DNA of 64,000 nucleotides from assembly GCA_021324015.1 (NCBI GenBank), contig JAJPJX010000093.1, forward strand, positions 1 through 64,000, in the 5' to 3' direction. Below are positions 38,155-43,157 of the stretch, in pieces. This DNA is from Solibacteraceae bacterium. Lineage in GTDB: Bacteria; Acidobacteriota; Terriglobia; Bryobacterales; Bryobacteraceae. The number at the start of each line of letters is the position of its first letter. The stretch's first letter is position 1. Made by a program: the position numbers and the translations under genes. Under the pieces are notes generated by a model. The model worked only from the letters and a program-made list of their open reading frames with translations, was not told the origin of the DNA and made no database searches.

Positions 38155-38260
38155 TGACACACGTCTCCAGCTCTAGGTCTGCAAACTATTTAGCGTAGCG
38201 GGCGCGGGAGCGGTTGTCAAATTCGGCGGCGCGGCTGCACAATCGGGGGGAGTGCGCGAA

Positions 38261-38860
38261 GTGTGCCTGTTGGCGGCCCTGGCCTGGCGCAGCCTGGCGG
38301 CCGCACAAGGTCTGGCCTGCGACGCCTGCCACGGATCGCCCGGCCCCGGACGGGTGGCGGCCCCGCTGTGCCAGAGTTGCCACACGGGAACGGCCTTGCG
38401 AAACAGCGGGCGAATCCGCTTTCGCAGCGCCATGGACGAAAGCGGAAAACCGCGTCAGGCGGCGGATGCCACCTTCGGCGTGCCGTTGAATCTGCGCTAC
38501 GCTCAGGCCACGGGCCACGGCGGCCTCAAGTGCGTCACCTGCCATGGAGAGCCTCACCAGCAGCCGCACGCCAGGGTGCTGGCGGATTGCGCGCCATGCC
38601 ATCAGAAGGTGGACACCATCGAGGGCGGACCGCACGGGCTGCATCCCCTGGGGGAGCAGTGGATCGCCGCGCACGGTCTGGCGGTGGACGAAGCCGGCGC
38701 CGCCGCCTGCCGGAAGTGCCACGGCACAGACGAACGCGGCACGGTGCTCTCCCGCGCCCAGGCGGAGCGCCGCTTCCAGACCCGCTACGGAGAGAAGCGC
38801 TTTGCGCGGGGAACGCCGATCGGCTGTTATTCGTGCCATGCCGGACCTTCGCCCGCTTGA
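38261..38860 (+). CDS. Periplasmic hexahaem c-type cytochrome
   Basis: About 199 residues with a short signal peptide (MCLLAALAWRSLAAAQG). Six CxxCH haem-attachment motifs are visible: CDACH, CQSCH, CVTCH, CAPCH, CRKCH and CYSCH. Additional His residues (GHGGLKCVTCHGEPHQQPH, GPHGLHPLGEQW) could provide distal ligands, so bis-His haems are likely. GTG at 38261 is about 8 nt after GGGGGGAG; a GTG 9 nt earlier is too close to it. The last codons overlap the -35 of the copper promoter downstream, so the gene adjoins the copper cluster but is probably expressed from its own promoter. Function: electron transfer, partner unknown. Confidence 0.82.
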   Translation: MCLLAALAWRSLAAAQGLACDACHGSPGPGRVAAPLCQSCHTGTALRNSGRIRFRSAMDESGKPRQAADATFGVPLNLRYAQATGHGGLKCVTCHGEPHQQPHARVLADCAPCHQKVDTIEGGPHGLHPLGEQWIAAHGLAVDEAGAAACRKCHGTDERGTVLSRAQAERRFQTRYGEKRFARGTPIGCYSCHAGPSPA

Positions 38861-38886
38861 CATAGGGGTAGGGGGTATCATATTAG
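38857..38886 (+). promoter_or_regulatory. Promoter of the copper operon
   Basis: A perfect TTGACA (38857-38862) overlaps the stop codon of the hexahaem cytochrome. TATTAG (38881-38886) lies 18 bp downstream; CATATT at 16 bp is an alternative. The spacer holds the first operator repeat, so repressor binding would occlude the polymerase. Confidence 0.65.
38862..38878 (+). promoter_or_regulatory. CsoR-like operator repeat 1
   Basis: ATAGGGGTAGGGGGTAT resembles G-tract CsoR/RcnR-family operators (A/T ends around runs of G). It lies between the -35 and -10 of the copper promoter. A cognate CsoR is encoded in the same cluster. Confidence 0.65.
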
Positions 38887-38903
38887 ATAGGGGTGGAGGG
38901 TAT
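38887..38903 (+). promoter_or_regulatory. CsoR-like operator repeat 2
   Basis: ATAGGGGTGGAGGGTAT matches repeat 1 at 15 of 17 positions and in the same orientation, 25 bp centre to centre. It covers the SD (GGTGGAGGG) of the CopZ-like gene directly before its ATG. Confidence 0.65.
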
Positions 38904-39125
38904 ATGGCAGAACAGAAGGAACTGCGCCTGGCGATCGAAGGCATGCACTGCGGCGCGTGCGTGAACCGGGTGACCATGGCATTGCGCAAACTCGCGGGCG
39001 TGGACGTGCGCCAGGTGGAAGTAGGTTCCGCCCAGGTGGGCTACGATCCGCAGGCGGCCTCGCCGGAAGCGATCGCCGGCGCCGTGAACCGGATCGGCTT
39101 CACCGCCCGGGTGGCGGGCGAGTAA
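38904..39125 (+). CDS. CopZ-like copper chaperone (HMA domain)
   Basis: A 73-residue stand-alone heavy-metal-associated domain. The metal-binding loop GMHCGACV places the Cys pair at residues 16 and 19, and the C-terminal [16 protein letters not shown] completes the ferredoxin-like fold. It is expected to carry Cu(I) to the N-terminal domain or platform of CopA, encoded 10 bp downstream. The ATG start has a good SD that is itself inside operator repeat 2. Confidence 0.88.
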
Positions 39126-39135
39126 CGAGGACTGC

Positions 39136-41487
39136 ATGCCCGCCAGCGCTTCGGAAACCGCCGGAGAGTCGATCACGATCCCGGTCAGCGGTATGACCTG
39201 CGCCGCCTGCCAGTCGTTTGTGCAGCGTACGCTGGAGCAGCAACCCGGCGTCCTTTCGGCGGCCGTGAACCTGATGGCCCAAAGCGCCAGCGTGGTCTAC
39301 ACGCCGGAAGCCACGTCTCCGGAAAAACTCGTGGAGGCGATCCGCGAGACCGGCTATGGAGCCGAAGTGCCGGCGGCGGGCCGCTCGGCGATCGAGGAGC
39401 AGGAGGAGCAGGACCGGGAGGCGGCGCGCGAGTTTCAGCGGCTGCGGCGCAAGACCGCGGCCAGCCTGGCGGCAGGCGCGGCGGCCATGATCCTCTCCCT
39501 GCCGCTGATGCACGCTTACGGACACACGCGCCCGGTGAGCGATCCGCTGCTGCGGTGGTCCATGCGCCACCTGGATCCGGCCCTGCGGGCGGCTCTGCCC
39601 TGGCTCTACGCGGTGAGCCCAGGAGTGCTGCGTTACGGACTATTGGCGCTGACGGCGGTGGTCATGGCGTGGGCCGGACGGCAGTTCTACGTGAAAGCCT
39701 GGGCCGCGCTGCGGGTTCGTTCCGCGGACATGAACACGCTGGTGGCGCTGGGCACGGGCGCGGCGTTCCTCTATTCGGCCTTCGCGACGCTGGCGCCGGG
39801 CTTCTTCCTGACCCGCGGCGTGGCGCCGGACGTGTATTACGAAGCCGTGATTTTCATCCTCGCACTGGTGCTCACCGGTAATATGCTGGAGGGCCGCGCC
39901 ACGCGACAGACCTCGGCGGCGCTGCGCAAACTGGCCGGGTTGCAGCCCAAGACGGCGCGCGTGGTGCGCGAGGGGGCCGAACAGGACCTGCCGGTGGAGC
40001 AGATCCGCCGCGGAGACACGGTCGTCATCCGGCCGGGCGAACGCCTGCCGGTGGACGGTGTGGTCCTGGCGGGCGCGAGCGGCGTGGACGAATCCATGCT
40101 GACCGGAGAATCCATGCCGGTGGAGAAGGCGCCCGGCGAGCGGGTGATGGGAGGCACGCTGAACAGGACCGGCACGCTGCGCTACCGGGCGACCACGCTG
40201 GGGGCGGATAGCGTGCTGGCGCAGGTGCTGCGCCTGCTGCGGGAGGCGCAGGGTTCGCGCGCGCCCATACAACGCCTGGCGGACCGCATCAGCGCCATCT
40301 TTGCGCCGGCGGTCGTCGCGGCGGCCATCCTCACGTTTACCGGCTGGCGAATTCTGGCGCCCCAGGCTTCGGTGTTTCAAGCCCTGGCCGCGGCGGTCGC
40401 GGTGCTGATCATCGCCTGCCCCTGTGCCATGGGGCTGGCGGTACCGGCGGCTGTGATGGTAGCCACGGGCCGCGGCGCGGATTACGGCATCCTGATCAAA
40501 GGCGGCGAGGCTTTGCAGCGCCTGGAGCGCATCGATACCGTGGTGCTGGATAAGACCGGCACCGTCACCCAGGGCCGTCCCGCCGTCACCGAGCTGGTGA
40601 TGCTCGCCCCCGCGCTCACGGAGAGCCGCTTGCTGATGCTGCTGGCGTCGCTCGAAAAATCGTCCGAGCATCCGCTGGCCGAAGCCGTGGTGGCCTTCGC
40701 CCGGGAGCGCGGCGTGGAACTGGCGGAGGCCGAGCGCTTCGAGGCCCGTCCGGGCCTGGGCGCGGTGGGGACGATTCAGGGCGAGCAGGTGGCCGCCGGC
40801 AACGCCGCGCTGCTGGAGGCGTTGGGCATCGCGCACGAGCCAGCCGTGAGCGAGCGCCTTGCCGCGGAAGGCAAGACACCCTTGCTGGTGGCTGTCAACG
40901 GAAGGCTGGCCGCGGTCATCGGCGTGGCGGACACAGTGAAACCCGCCGCGGCCGAAGCGGTGCGCGCGCTGCGGCGGCAAGGTCTGCGGGTGGTCATGCT
41001 CACTGGCGACAACCGGCGGACGGCGCAGGCCATCGCCGGCCAGGTGGGCATTGGCGAGGTGGTGGCGGGGGTGCTGCCGGCCGGGAAAGTGGATACCGTG
41101 AAACGCTTGCAGCAGGAGGGCCGCACGGTCGCTATGGTGGGCGACGGGATCAATGACGCGCCCGCACTGGCCCAAGCCGATGTGGGCATCGCCATGGCCA
41201 GCGGCGCCGACGTGGCCATCGAAGCGGGAGACGTGACCCTGATGCGCAGCGACCCGCGCGGGGTGGCCCGGGCCATCGCGCTCTCGCGGGCCAGCATGCG
41301 CGTGATGTGGCAGAACCTGTTCTGGGCGTTCCTTTACAACAGCATCAGCATTCCCATCGCGGCGGGCCTGCTGTACCCGGTGTGGGGATTGCAAGTCAGC
41401 CCGGTGCTGGCCAGCGCGGCCATGGCATCGAGCTCGGTCAGCGTGGTTTCCAACAGCCTGCGGCTGCGGCGTCTGAAGTTGGCGTGA
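39136..41487 (+). CDS. copA: Cu(I)-exporting P1B-type ATPase CopA
   Basis: A 783-residue P1B-1 ATPase. A single N-terminal HMA domain carries GMTCAAC (Cys 22 and 25). The transmembrane metal site has [10 protein letters not shown] near 428-433. The phosphorylation motif DKTGTVTQG starts at about Asp472. HP is in [11 protein letters not shown], and [19 protein letters not shown] is the hinge. The late helices carry [11 protein letters not shown] and [12 protein letters not shown], matching the Tyr-Asn and Met-Ser-Ser copper ligands. These residues specify Cu(I)/Ag(I). It exports copper from cytoplasm to periplasm, in an operon with a chaperone and CsoR. Confidence 0.95.
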
Positions 41488-41498
41488 GGCAAACACAT

Positions 41499-41843
41499 AT
41501 GGCGGAAAGCGAAACGGCGACTACCACCTGCGGCTGCGAAGCCCAGGCCGGCGGCCGCAAGGCTGTGGCGGTCGATCCGGAAATCAAATCCTCCAACCTG
41601 AAGCGCCTGCGCCGCATCGAGGGCCAGATTCGCGGCCTCGAAAAAATGGTCGAGGAGGATCGCTATTGCGCGGACATCATCGTGCAGATCGCCTCGGCGC
41701 AGGAGGCGCTCCGCTCGGTGGGCCGCGCGCTGATGCGCAACCACCTGCGGCACTGCGCTGCCAAGGCCATCCGCGGCTCCGACGAGGAGGCCGGCGCCAT
41801 GTACGACGAGTTGCTGGAGCTGATCTACAGACATCTGCGATAG
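41499..41843 (+). CDS. csoR: Copper-sensing repressor CsoR
   Basis: A 114-residue DUF156-family all-helical repressor. The core is LKRLRRIEGQIRGLEKMVEEDRYCADIIVQIASAQEALRSVGRALMRNHLRHC. The Cu(I) ligands appear as Cys57, His82 and Cys86, with spacing identical to the x24/x3 of CsoR, favouring copper over the nickel (RcnR/InrS) subgroups. An additional CGC lies in the N-terminal tail. The ATG is 11 nt after copA stop. Two G-tract operator repeats upstream of the copZ-like gene suggest autoregulation of the whole operon, derepressed by Cu(I). Confidence 0.92.
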   Translation: MAESETATTTCGCEAQAGGRKAVAVDPEIKSSNLKRLRRIEGQIRGLEKMVEEDRYCADIIVQIASAQEALRSVGRALMRNHLRHCAAKAIRGSDEEAGAMYDELLELIYRHLR

Positions 41844-41858
41844 GCGGATTTCCCGGCC

Positions 41859-43157
41859 GTGAGAGAAAAGCGACTGATACGAATCTTCTTCGTGTGTTTG
41901 GGAACGTCGGCCGCCTTCGCGCAGCAGGATCACGAACCTATGGGCACGAGCATGCCGGGCACGCATCACGCCATGAACCGCGCCGGCATGTACCTGATGA
42001 ACCTGGCCTCGGGCACCGGCCGGAATCCGGCGGCGGCACAGATGCCCATGATCATGAGCCAGGCCGGAAGGTGGAACCTGATGTGGATGGGCACCGCCTT
42101 CCTGGTGGACACGCAGCAGAGCAGCCCGCGCGGCGGCGATAAGCTCTATTCGCCCAACTGGTTCATGCTGGGGGCGGAACACGCCCTGGGGCGTGGCAGC
42201 GTACTGATCAAAGGCATGCTCAGCCTGGAGCCCGCCACCATCACCGACCGCCGCTATCCGCTGCTCTTCCAGACCGGCGAGACGGCCTACGGCGTGCCAT
42301 TAGTGGACGCCCAGCATCCGCACGACCTGTTCATGGAATTGAGCGTACAGTACGCCCGGCCGCTGGGCGAGAAGACCATGTGGAACGTGTACTACGCGCC
42401 TGTGGGCGATCCGGCGCTGGGCCCGGTGGCCTTTCCCCATCGCGCCTCGGCGGCTGAACTGCCGCAGGCAACCCTTGGCCACCACTGGGAGGACTCCACA
42501 CACATTTCCTACCAGGTGGTCACCATGGGTCTGTCGCACGGCCCCGTGCGGCTGGAAGCCAGCGGATTCCACGGGGCCGAGCCGGCGGAGAACCGCTGGA
42601 CCATCGCCTACGGCGGTATCGACTCCTGGTCCGCGCGGTTTTCGGTCACCCCCAACCGCAACTGGATGGGGCAGGTATCCGTGGGCCGCCTCAGTCATCC
42701 CGAGGCGGCCGAACCCGGCGACGTGGTGCGGGCCACAGCGTCGGCGCACTACAGCACGGCGAGCCTGGGCGAGCAGTGGTCTTCGAGCTTTATTTGGGGC
42801 AGAAACTATAAGACTTTCGACCGGCAGGCCACCAACTCCCTTACGGTGGAGTCCGTGAAGCAGTTCCGCCGGAGAAATTTCGTCACAGGGCGGTTCGAGT
42901 GGTCCCAGCGCGACGAATTGTTCGCGGCCACCCCGGAGATCGAGGAGCAACTCGCGCAGGCCGTGCACACGCGTGCGTTCCCGATCACCGCCTACACCAT
43001 GGGCTATACGCGCGATGTGGGCTGGCTGCGGAATGTCGAAACGGGCGTCGGCGCCAACTTCAGCGCGTATGGGGTGCCCTCCGCGATCGAGCCGTACTAC
43101 GGCGCGCACCCGGTTGGAGCGAACGTCTTCCTGCGGCTGCGCCTCCGTTCCGAGTAG
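41859..43157 (+). CDS. His/Met-rich outer-membrane barrel-like protein of the copper operon
   Basis: A 432-residue protein with a signal peptide (LIRIFFVCLGTSAAFAQ). The first mature residues (HEPMGTSMPGTHHAMNRAGMYLMNLASGTG, then MPMIMSQAGRWNLMWMG) are unusually rich in Met and His, a pattern typical of copper-binding periplasmic segments. The rest alternates hydrophobic/aromatic strands and short turns (e.g. WTIAYGGIDSWSARFSVTPNRNWMGQVSVGRL) and ends FLRLRLRSE, consistent with a porin-like barrel. No TonB box or plug is seen. It starts at GTG 15 nt after csoR, so it is the last gene of the copper operon. A role in copper passage or sequestration is inferred. Confidence 0.65.
   Translation: MREKRLIRIFFVCLGTSAAFAQQDHEPMGTSMPGTHHAMNRAGMYLMNLASGTGRNPAAAQMPMIMSQAGRWNLMWMGTAFLVDTQQSSPRGGDKLYSPNWFMLGAEHALGRGSVLIKGMLSLEPATITDRRYPLLFQTGETAYGVPLVDAQHPHDLFMELSVQYARPLGEKTMWNVYYAPVGDPALGPVAFPHRASAAELPQATLGHHWEDSTHISYQVVTMGLSHGPVRLEASGFHGAEPAENRWTIAYGGIDSWSARFSVTPNRNWMGQVSVGRLSHPEAAEPGDVVRATASAHYSTASLGEQWSSSFIWGRNYKTFDRQATNSLTVESVKQFRRRNFVTGRFEWSQRDELFAATPEIEEQLAQAVHTRAFPITAYTMGYTRDVGWLRNVETGVGANFSAYGVPSAIEPYYGAHPVGANVFLRLRLRSE

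Follow-up and report, generated by a model that had tools for sequence, protein, structure and literature searches.

In the model for the CsoR family, apo-CsoR binds its operator and Cu(I) releases it (accessible part of PMC3902906). According to the same portion of that source, the operators of Streptomyces lividans CsoR have been studied biochemically and two tetramers occupy a single type 2 site. In a type 2 operator, 2-4 bases separate two short G/C tracts, which are enclosed by an outer AT-rich inverted repeat whose halves lie approximately 11 bp apart. The S. lividans type 2 operators, found before copZA1, copZA2, and csoR, have a 16-19 bp core and are palindromic (TAC-N9-GTA), with a C tract on the left, a G tract on the right, and one consensus each (PMC3902906). 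Two close operators occur within the CsoR/RcnR family, as the available text of PMC3902906 and PMC12724321 indicates.

Other described operators of the family resemble the locus studied here in part. In the accessible part of PMC5057107, the CsoR-box of Bradyrhizobium liaoningense csoR-cueA, TATACCCCTACCGGGTATA, overlaps the -10 element and CsoR represses; it is a single palindromic box in a divergent promoter, csoR is leaderless, and no Shine-Dalgarno sequence lies in the box. The NreA operator of Mesorhizobium nreAXY, so far as PMC12724321 is accessible, lies in the -35/-10 spacer of a compact 39-bp promoter, and it is a nickel-type, type 1 site with a single G7 tract, present once, with a leaderless transcript that carries no Shine-Dalgarno sequence. 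The Escherichia coli RcnR type 1 operator, TACT-G6-N-AGTA, is tandem, with an AT-rich inverted repeat and its G tract on one strand, and it serves a Ni/Co sensor with one tract and 1:1 stoichiometry per site (PMC3902906, same portion).

The window, i.e., the whole 64-kb stretch of DNA analysed here, contains a copper-export operon with the following features.

38252-38860, + strand: cytochrome c7-like ORF, 202 aa, six CxxCH motifs, ending inside the -35 of the copper promoter
38857-38862, + strand: -35 hexamer TTGACA, called by consensus match
38862-38878, + strand: box 1, ATAGGGGTAGGGGGTAT, in the -35/-10 spacer, CsoR operator predicted from sequence comparison
38879-38884, + strand: probable -10 CATATT, called by consensus match, with alternatives 1 or 2 bases downstream
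38887-38903, + strand: box 2, ATAGGGGTGGAGGGTAT, spanning the predicted transcription start and the ribosome site, predicted CsoR operator
38895-38899, + strand: Shine-Dalgarno sequence GGAGG within box 2, 4 nt before the ATG at 38904
38904-39125, + strand: copZ-like HMA metallochaperone, 73 aa, GMHCGAC (Pfam PF00403, E 2.2e-9)
39136-41487, + strand: copA, Cu(I)-translocating P1B ATPase with an N-terminal HMA domain, 783 aa (TIGR01511, 615 bits, cutoff 397)
41499-41843, + strand: csoR, 114 aa, C57/H82/C86, RLRR motif (PF02583, 95.7 bits)
41859-43157, + strand: uncharacterised ORF directly after csoR, 432 aa, Met/His-rich start, without a Pfam or NCBIfam match

The -35 hexamer overlaps the TGA stop codon (38858-38860) of the upstream cytochrome ORF, and the 43 bp between this ORF and the copZ-like gene contain nearly the whole promoter, whose best -35/-10 pair has a 16-bp spacer and 10/12 consensus matches. 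Both 17-mers of the original prediction were found exactly, on the same strand, identical at 15/17 positions, with starts 25 bp apart and 8 bp between them. They flank the -10, and box 2 abuts the ATG of the copZ-copA-csoR operon. Box 1 had been placed between the -35 and the -10; it does lie in the spacer, but its first A is the last A of the -35, so it is not strictly between the two elements. The overlap claimed for box 2 with the Shine-Dalgarno sequence of the copZ-like gene is real, as the GGAGG lies inside the box. If transcription starts 6-8 nt past the -10, the leader would be about 11-14 nt long and would begin inside box 2, so that box 2 would also supply the Shine-Dalgarno sequence.

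Box 1 can be written ATA-GGGG-TA-GGGGG-TAT and box 2 ATA-GGGG-TGGA-GGG-TAT. Each contains two G/C tracts within an AT-rich outer repeat, with an ATA-to-TAT spacing of 11 bp, as in type 2 operators, and both lie in a copper-export promoter, called by consensus, in a genome that encodes a CsoR. Similar to the S. lividans sites, they stand before copZA-type genes and are accompanied by a copper CsoR. In contrast to the S. lividans consensus, they have G tracts on one strand and are paired. The locus shares operator/promoter overlap with B. liaoningense, spacer placement and compactness with the NreA promoter, and a tandem arrangement with one-strand G tracts with RcnR, while the leaderless transcripts of the first two, the nickel or cobalt specificity of the last two, and the one tract per site of both type 1 operators set those systems apart from it.

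The copZ-like gene, copA, and csoR form a tight gene run on the + strand. The best PDB matches of the encoded CsoR are the CsoR chains 4m1p and 4adz. Residues C57, H82, and C86 align with PDB CsoR sequences in the C-H-C, H-x3-C arrangement of copper-CsoR ligands, and the segment KRLRRIEGQ aligns with 4adz and carries, as RLRR, the RLXR DNA-contact motif of helix 1. The protein passes the cutoff of the Pfam PF02583 model; at the NCBIfam equivalog level its best model, RicR, scores 84 bits, below the cutoff of 175. A copper-type C-H-C CsoR had been expected downstream, and it is the third gene of the run. The uncharacterised ORF after csoR has a 63% identical stretch near copA in locus L128, in a genome (G012) without a csoR match.

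Our data suggest, with a probability of roughly 0.92, that the repeats are tandem type 2 CsoR operators which would autoregulate the copZ-copA-csoR copper-export operon. At low copper, apo-CsoR tetramers would bind box 1 in the -35/-10 spacer and exclude RNA polymerase, and apo-CsoR on box 2, which extends from the predicted start of transcription to the start codon, would keep the promoter from opening or the polymerase from escaping. Binding of Cu(I) to C57, H82, and C86 would release CsoR and allow transcription of the operon, including csoR, whose position as third gene would close a negative feedback loop. The original prediction assigned two tetramers to the pair, and this part is weaker: two tetramers were published for a single type 2 site, so the pair could take four.

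For comparison, CsoR was searched in 61 genomes (60 relatives and the genome of the window), 16 of which contained a match at E 0.001, and in 396 genomes drawn from the phylum, 52 of which contained a match at E 1e-15. The 54 CsoR places of the 396-genome scan comprise the window, 40 places that were taken, and 13 that were left out. In total, 57 stretches were taken from the genome scans and combined with the best 80 loci of a further scan, giving 131 loci with a good csoR match; the counts exclude seven loci (L049-L055) of CsoR-family paralogues that match weakly. The Acidobacteriota set of 57 loci consists of 51 genome-scan loci (window included) and 6 among the best 80, and the genomes of the two sources may overlap. 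The phylum label of the genome-scan relatives was inferred from the nearest CsoR among the best 80 (L155, Acidobacteria, 79%), and the Actinomycetota group in the tract counts was sorted by record titles. The 350-bp upstream window used for counting was chosen after the boxes had been seen.

We found that strict boxes (ATA-S3-N5-S3-TAT) are concentrated before the operon: across the 51 csoR-bearing Acidobacteriota genome-scan loci, window included, the 350-bp upstream windows contain 44 and the other 728 kb contain 1, which lies between csoR and copA in L044. At least one strict upstream box is present in 37 of these 51 loci. In the whole Acidobacteriota set, 41 of the 57 loci carry one or more strict boxes no further than 350 bp from the first copper-operon gene or csoR. 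The remaining 16 comprise 4 cut by a contig end, 8 with a 1-mismatch box, and 4 with neither form (L107, L115, L116, and L117). The box 1 17-mer also occurs as the upstream box at L039:7676 and as the downstream box at L095:5177, and that of box 2 recurs before copZ in L041 and L150, in both as the downstream box. As a positive control, the palindromic form ATACCC-N5-GGGTAT was present in 26 of 27 Streptomyces csoR loci among the best 80, and these boxes agree with the S. lividans consensus ATATACCCCTNAGGGGTATAT given in the accessible part of PMC3902906. Among the 11 Bacillota loci of the best 80, none had a strict box and 9 had a 1-mismatch box. The motif search before copA and csoR of related genomes, proposed with the original prediction, thus returned a conserved motif, and this outcome did not refute the prediction.

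Individual loci showed further arrangements. L044 carries, in addition to the strict box between csoR and the downstream copA, a 1-mismatch box before csoR (L044:9690-10080, operon orientation), i.e., possible operators at two points in one gene cluster. Upstream of csoR in L115 and L117, a spacer with TTGAC, three G-runs, and TAT may represent an extended G-tract operator. The divergent CsoR-family paralogues of L049, L052, and L054 (27-28% identity) are preceded by TATACC-N4-GGGGTAT, which is probably the operator of another sensor.

The boxes might instead serve another regulator of the CueR/MerR or CopY type, or be a generic strong-promoter feature of copper genes. MerR-type activators usually have their operator in the -35/-10 spacer, as box 1 has, and the spacer of their promoters is 19-20 bp, against 16-18 bp here. 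We found that the boxes track csoR and not copA: among the 30 copA loci that matched best in 101 genomes, a box was present in 9/9 with csoR alongside (in L148 between csoR and copA) and in 0/21 without (p 7e-8), the latter having no box anywhere in the locus. Eight of the nine positive loci come from genomes already in the 51-locus count, so this comparison adds mainly the 21 negatives, one of which (G487) carries a csoR on that contig outside the locus. The pattern also fits the published CsoR operators (accessible parts of PMC3902906 and PMC5057107), and both another regulator and a generic promoter feature are very improbable. Because of their conservation, their linkage to csoR, the Streptomyces control, and the agreement with the S. 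lividans and Bradyrhizobium sites, there is strong evidence that the boxes are CsoR operators; the reading of the pair as predicted CsoR operators, one of them over a Shine-Dalgarno sequence, is therefore strongly supported by comparative genomics.

Boxes 1 and 2 are the only strict boxes in the 64-kb window, where any other site has at least 4 mismatches to either box. The loose pattern ATASSSNNNNNSSSTAT likewise occurs in the window only at these two places and in 0 of 60 first-order Markov simulations of it. Across the 8.2-Mb genome, it occurs at 8 places, vs 10 for a backwards control, but boxes 1 and 2 alone among these have a clean tract in each half. What is rare on the genome scale is thus the clean form, paired and placed in a promoter, and not the loose pattern by itself. 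None of the other six loose-pattern places combines two clean tracts, and a search for further genome sites with 3 mismatches gave noise (104 matches vs 99 for the backwards control), so a wider CsoR regulon in this genome was rejected.

We next consider whether both boxes act as operators. Strict close pairs were counted in 8 loci of Acidobacteriota (n=57) and 1 of Gemmatimonadota (n=13), and the 61 loci of other groups had none. Allowing up to one mismatch, a second box lies within 45 bp in 13 of the 50 boxed Acidobacteriota and Gemmatimonadota loci, where approximately 0.25 would be expected (background 6.5e-5 per position). In one of these 13 loci, L167, the second box overlaps the first by 2 bp. 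Further pairs occur in L150 and, outside the counting window, in L163. The start-to-start spacings of 14 pairs (strict or 1 mismatch) are 19, 20 (four pairs), 21 (two), 22 (three), 23, 25 (two), and 35 bp, leaving out L167 (15 bp, overlapping), L163 (37 bp, boxes more than 350 bp from the copA match), and a 135-bp repeat in L108. Most pairs are close to two helical turns, but the 25 bp of the window is not a whole number of turns, and helical phasing was rejected as a rule.

An alternative is that only box 1 is a working operator and that box 2 is a strong G-rich Shine-Dalgarno sequence with little affinity for CsoR, its likeness to box 1 being due to chance or descent. Box 2 does contain a perfect GGAGG 4 nt before the ATG and differs from box 1 exactly there, and most boxed relatives have a single box only. 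However, box 2 retains the ATA...TAT ends and both outer G tracts, which a Shine-Dalgarno sequence does not need, and, as noted above, its 17-mer recurs before copZ in two other loci. Moreover, the sole strict box stands at the start codon in L046, L098, and L106, and downstream boxes without GGAGG exist (L039, L045, and L095). We consider this alternative unlikely. With both boxes read as putative operators, the two-base difference between them (TAGGGGG to TGGAGGG) is best explained by box 2 doubling as the Shine-Dalgarno sequence.

Placement of the downstream box at the start codon is common among pairs. Of the 9 strict pairs, 7 have their downstream box 0-7 nt away from a single in-frame start (L039, L041, L045, L095, L097, L156, and the window); in the remaining two, the start is ambiguous (L155) or 12 nt from the box (L168). 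A box was counted as start-adjacent when every in-frame start between it and the protein match was at most 8 nt from the box, because automatic start calls gave false distances of 0, e.g., in L090, where a likelier start with its own Shine-Dalgarno sequence lies 30 nt beyond TATATG. By this rule, a start-adjacent box is present in 12 of the 48 non-duplicate loci of Acidobacteriota and Gemmatimonadota, and 12 others are ambiguous or unassignable. GGAGG or AGGAG lies inside the box in 4 of 12 boxes at starts vs 1 of 34 far from them (p 0.013, relatedness ignored) and in 3 of 12 ambiguous ones.

Both window boxes have the form TAG-N9-GTA, i.e., they retain the right half of TAC-N9-GTA and lack the left half, and so depart from the dyad that the S. 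lividans protein was shown to require. A G/C swap of this dyad at both ends abolished binding of S. lividans CsoR (PMC3902906, accessible part); this is a stronger change than that of the window boxes, in which one end is swapped, but it is a warning for the predicted binding. Among distinct boxes, the left and right tracts were GG in 18, CG in 30, and CC in 1 of the Acidobacteriota boxes (n=49), 5, 3, and 2 in Gemmatimonadota, and 2, 29, and 3 in Actinomycetota. L039, L041, and L097 each carry a flipped-tract box and a palindromic box side by side, so one CsoR presumably reads both classes. TTGAC directly precedes 8 of 26 GG boxes vs 3 of 67 CG boxes, so that fusion to the -35 is more frequent for the flipped form. 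Away from the start, boxes with both tracts on the same strand were GG in 10 cases vs CC in 2 (p 0.04; Acidobacteriota and Gemmatimonadota loci), a sense-strand G bias that is not accounted for by a Shine-Dalgarno role.

From these data, we lean towards the view that CsoR of Acidobacteriota and Gemmatimonadota reads same-strand G-tract operators (TAG-N9-GTA), with tract shape and ATA/TAT ends counting over twofold symmetry, and that the second operator has repeatedly merged with the ribosome-binding site, giving a two-operator region of roughly 45 bp where a single 17-mer serves CsoR as a binding site and the ribosome as a Shine-Dalgarno sequence. Earlier work already describes tandem CsoR/RcnR sites as well as operators in the spacer. 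What is distinct here, as far as the sequence comparison predicts, is that one half-tract is flipped (TAG...GTA, not TAC...GTA) and that the downstream operator supplies the Shine-Dalgarno sequence; the locus represents a known copper switch in a compact form that is typical of the clade, and not a new system type. In the accessible literature, which leaves most subscription papers outside and is thus weak evidence of absence, we found neither a study of Acidobacteriota CsoR operators nor an operator serving as Shine-Dalgarno sequence for a CsoR target. Our data add a comparative map of predicted CsoR operators for Acidobacteriota. They also open one point of CsoR-DNA recognition to a direct test: CsoR may need the twofold TAC/GTA dyad, or G-tract shape together with one correct half may be enough. 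For this purpose, the natural one-half-flipped boxes, some beside a palindromic box presumably read by the same CsoR, form a set ready for use. As the fusion of operator and Shine-Dalgarno sequence indicates, a copper promoter can be packed into approximately 45 bp, which is useful for reading promoters of uncultured soil bacteria.

A possible mRNA-level effect of the G-rich leader through a G-quadruplex had also been suggested; such a quadruplex, in DNA or mRNA, would tune expression. Four G-runs do lie within 38865-38900, and with loops of up to 15 allowed, a relaxed pattern is found in 2 of 50 loci, the window and L108. On the other hand, a canonical G-quadruplex (four runs of at least three G, loops 1-7) was found around the boxes on either strand in 0 of the 50 boxed loci, window included. 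The left tract is C in the 30 CG boxes of Acidobacteriota given above, and the predicted mRNA leader contains only two G-runs. The fold of the leader and early coding RNA is no better than that of shuffles (z 0.49), and the leader matches no Rfam family. A G-quadruplex or riboswitch was rejected on the absence of canonical G-quadruplexes, the Rfam result, and the RNA fold, and an effect of the leader through a quadruplex has the lowest probability of the readings considered, at the edge of what is credible.

Finally, the tandem layout was mapped on a CsoR tree of 51 rows, 13 of them labelled tandem (the 13 loci with a partner within 45 bp, minus L167 and plus L111). The labels need 10 changes, at least 4 of which are forced by supported branches, and 60 of 500 shuffles were as low as 10 on this tree, which is weakly resolved and has long branches. 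A single origin of the tandem layout was rejected on the tree, and the changes suggest that the layout recurs or is often lost. The repeat in L108 (L108:5154-5305, operon orientation) is a 135-bp direct duplication of the operator region and the start of the HMA coding sequence.
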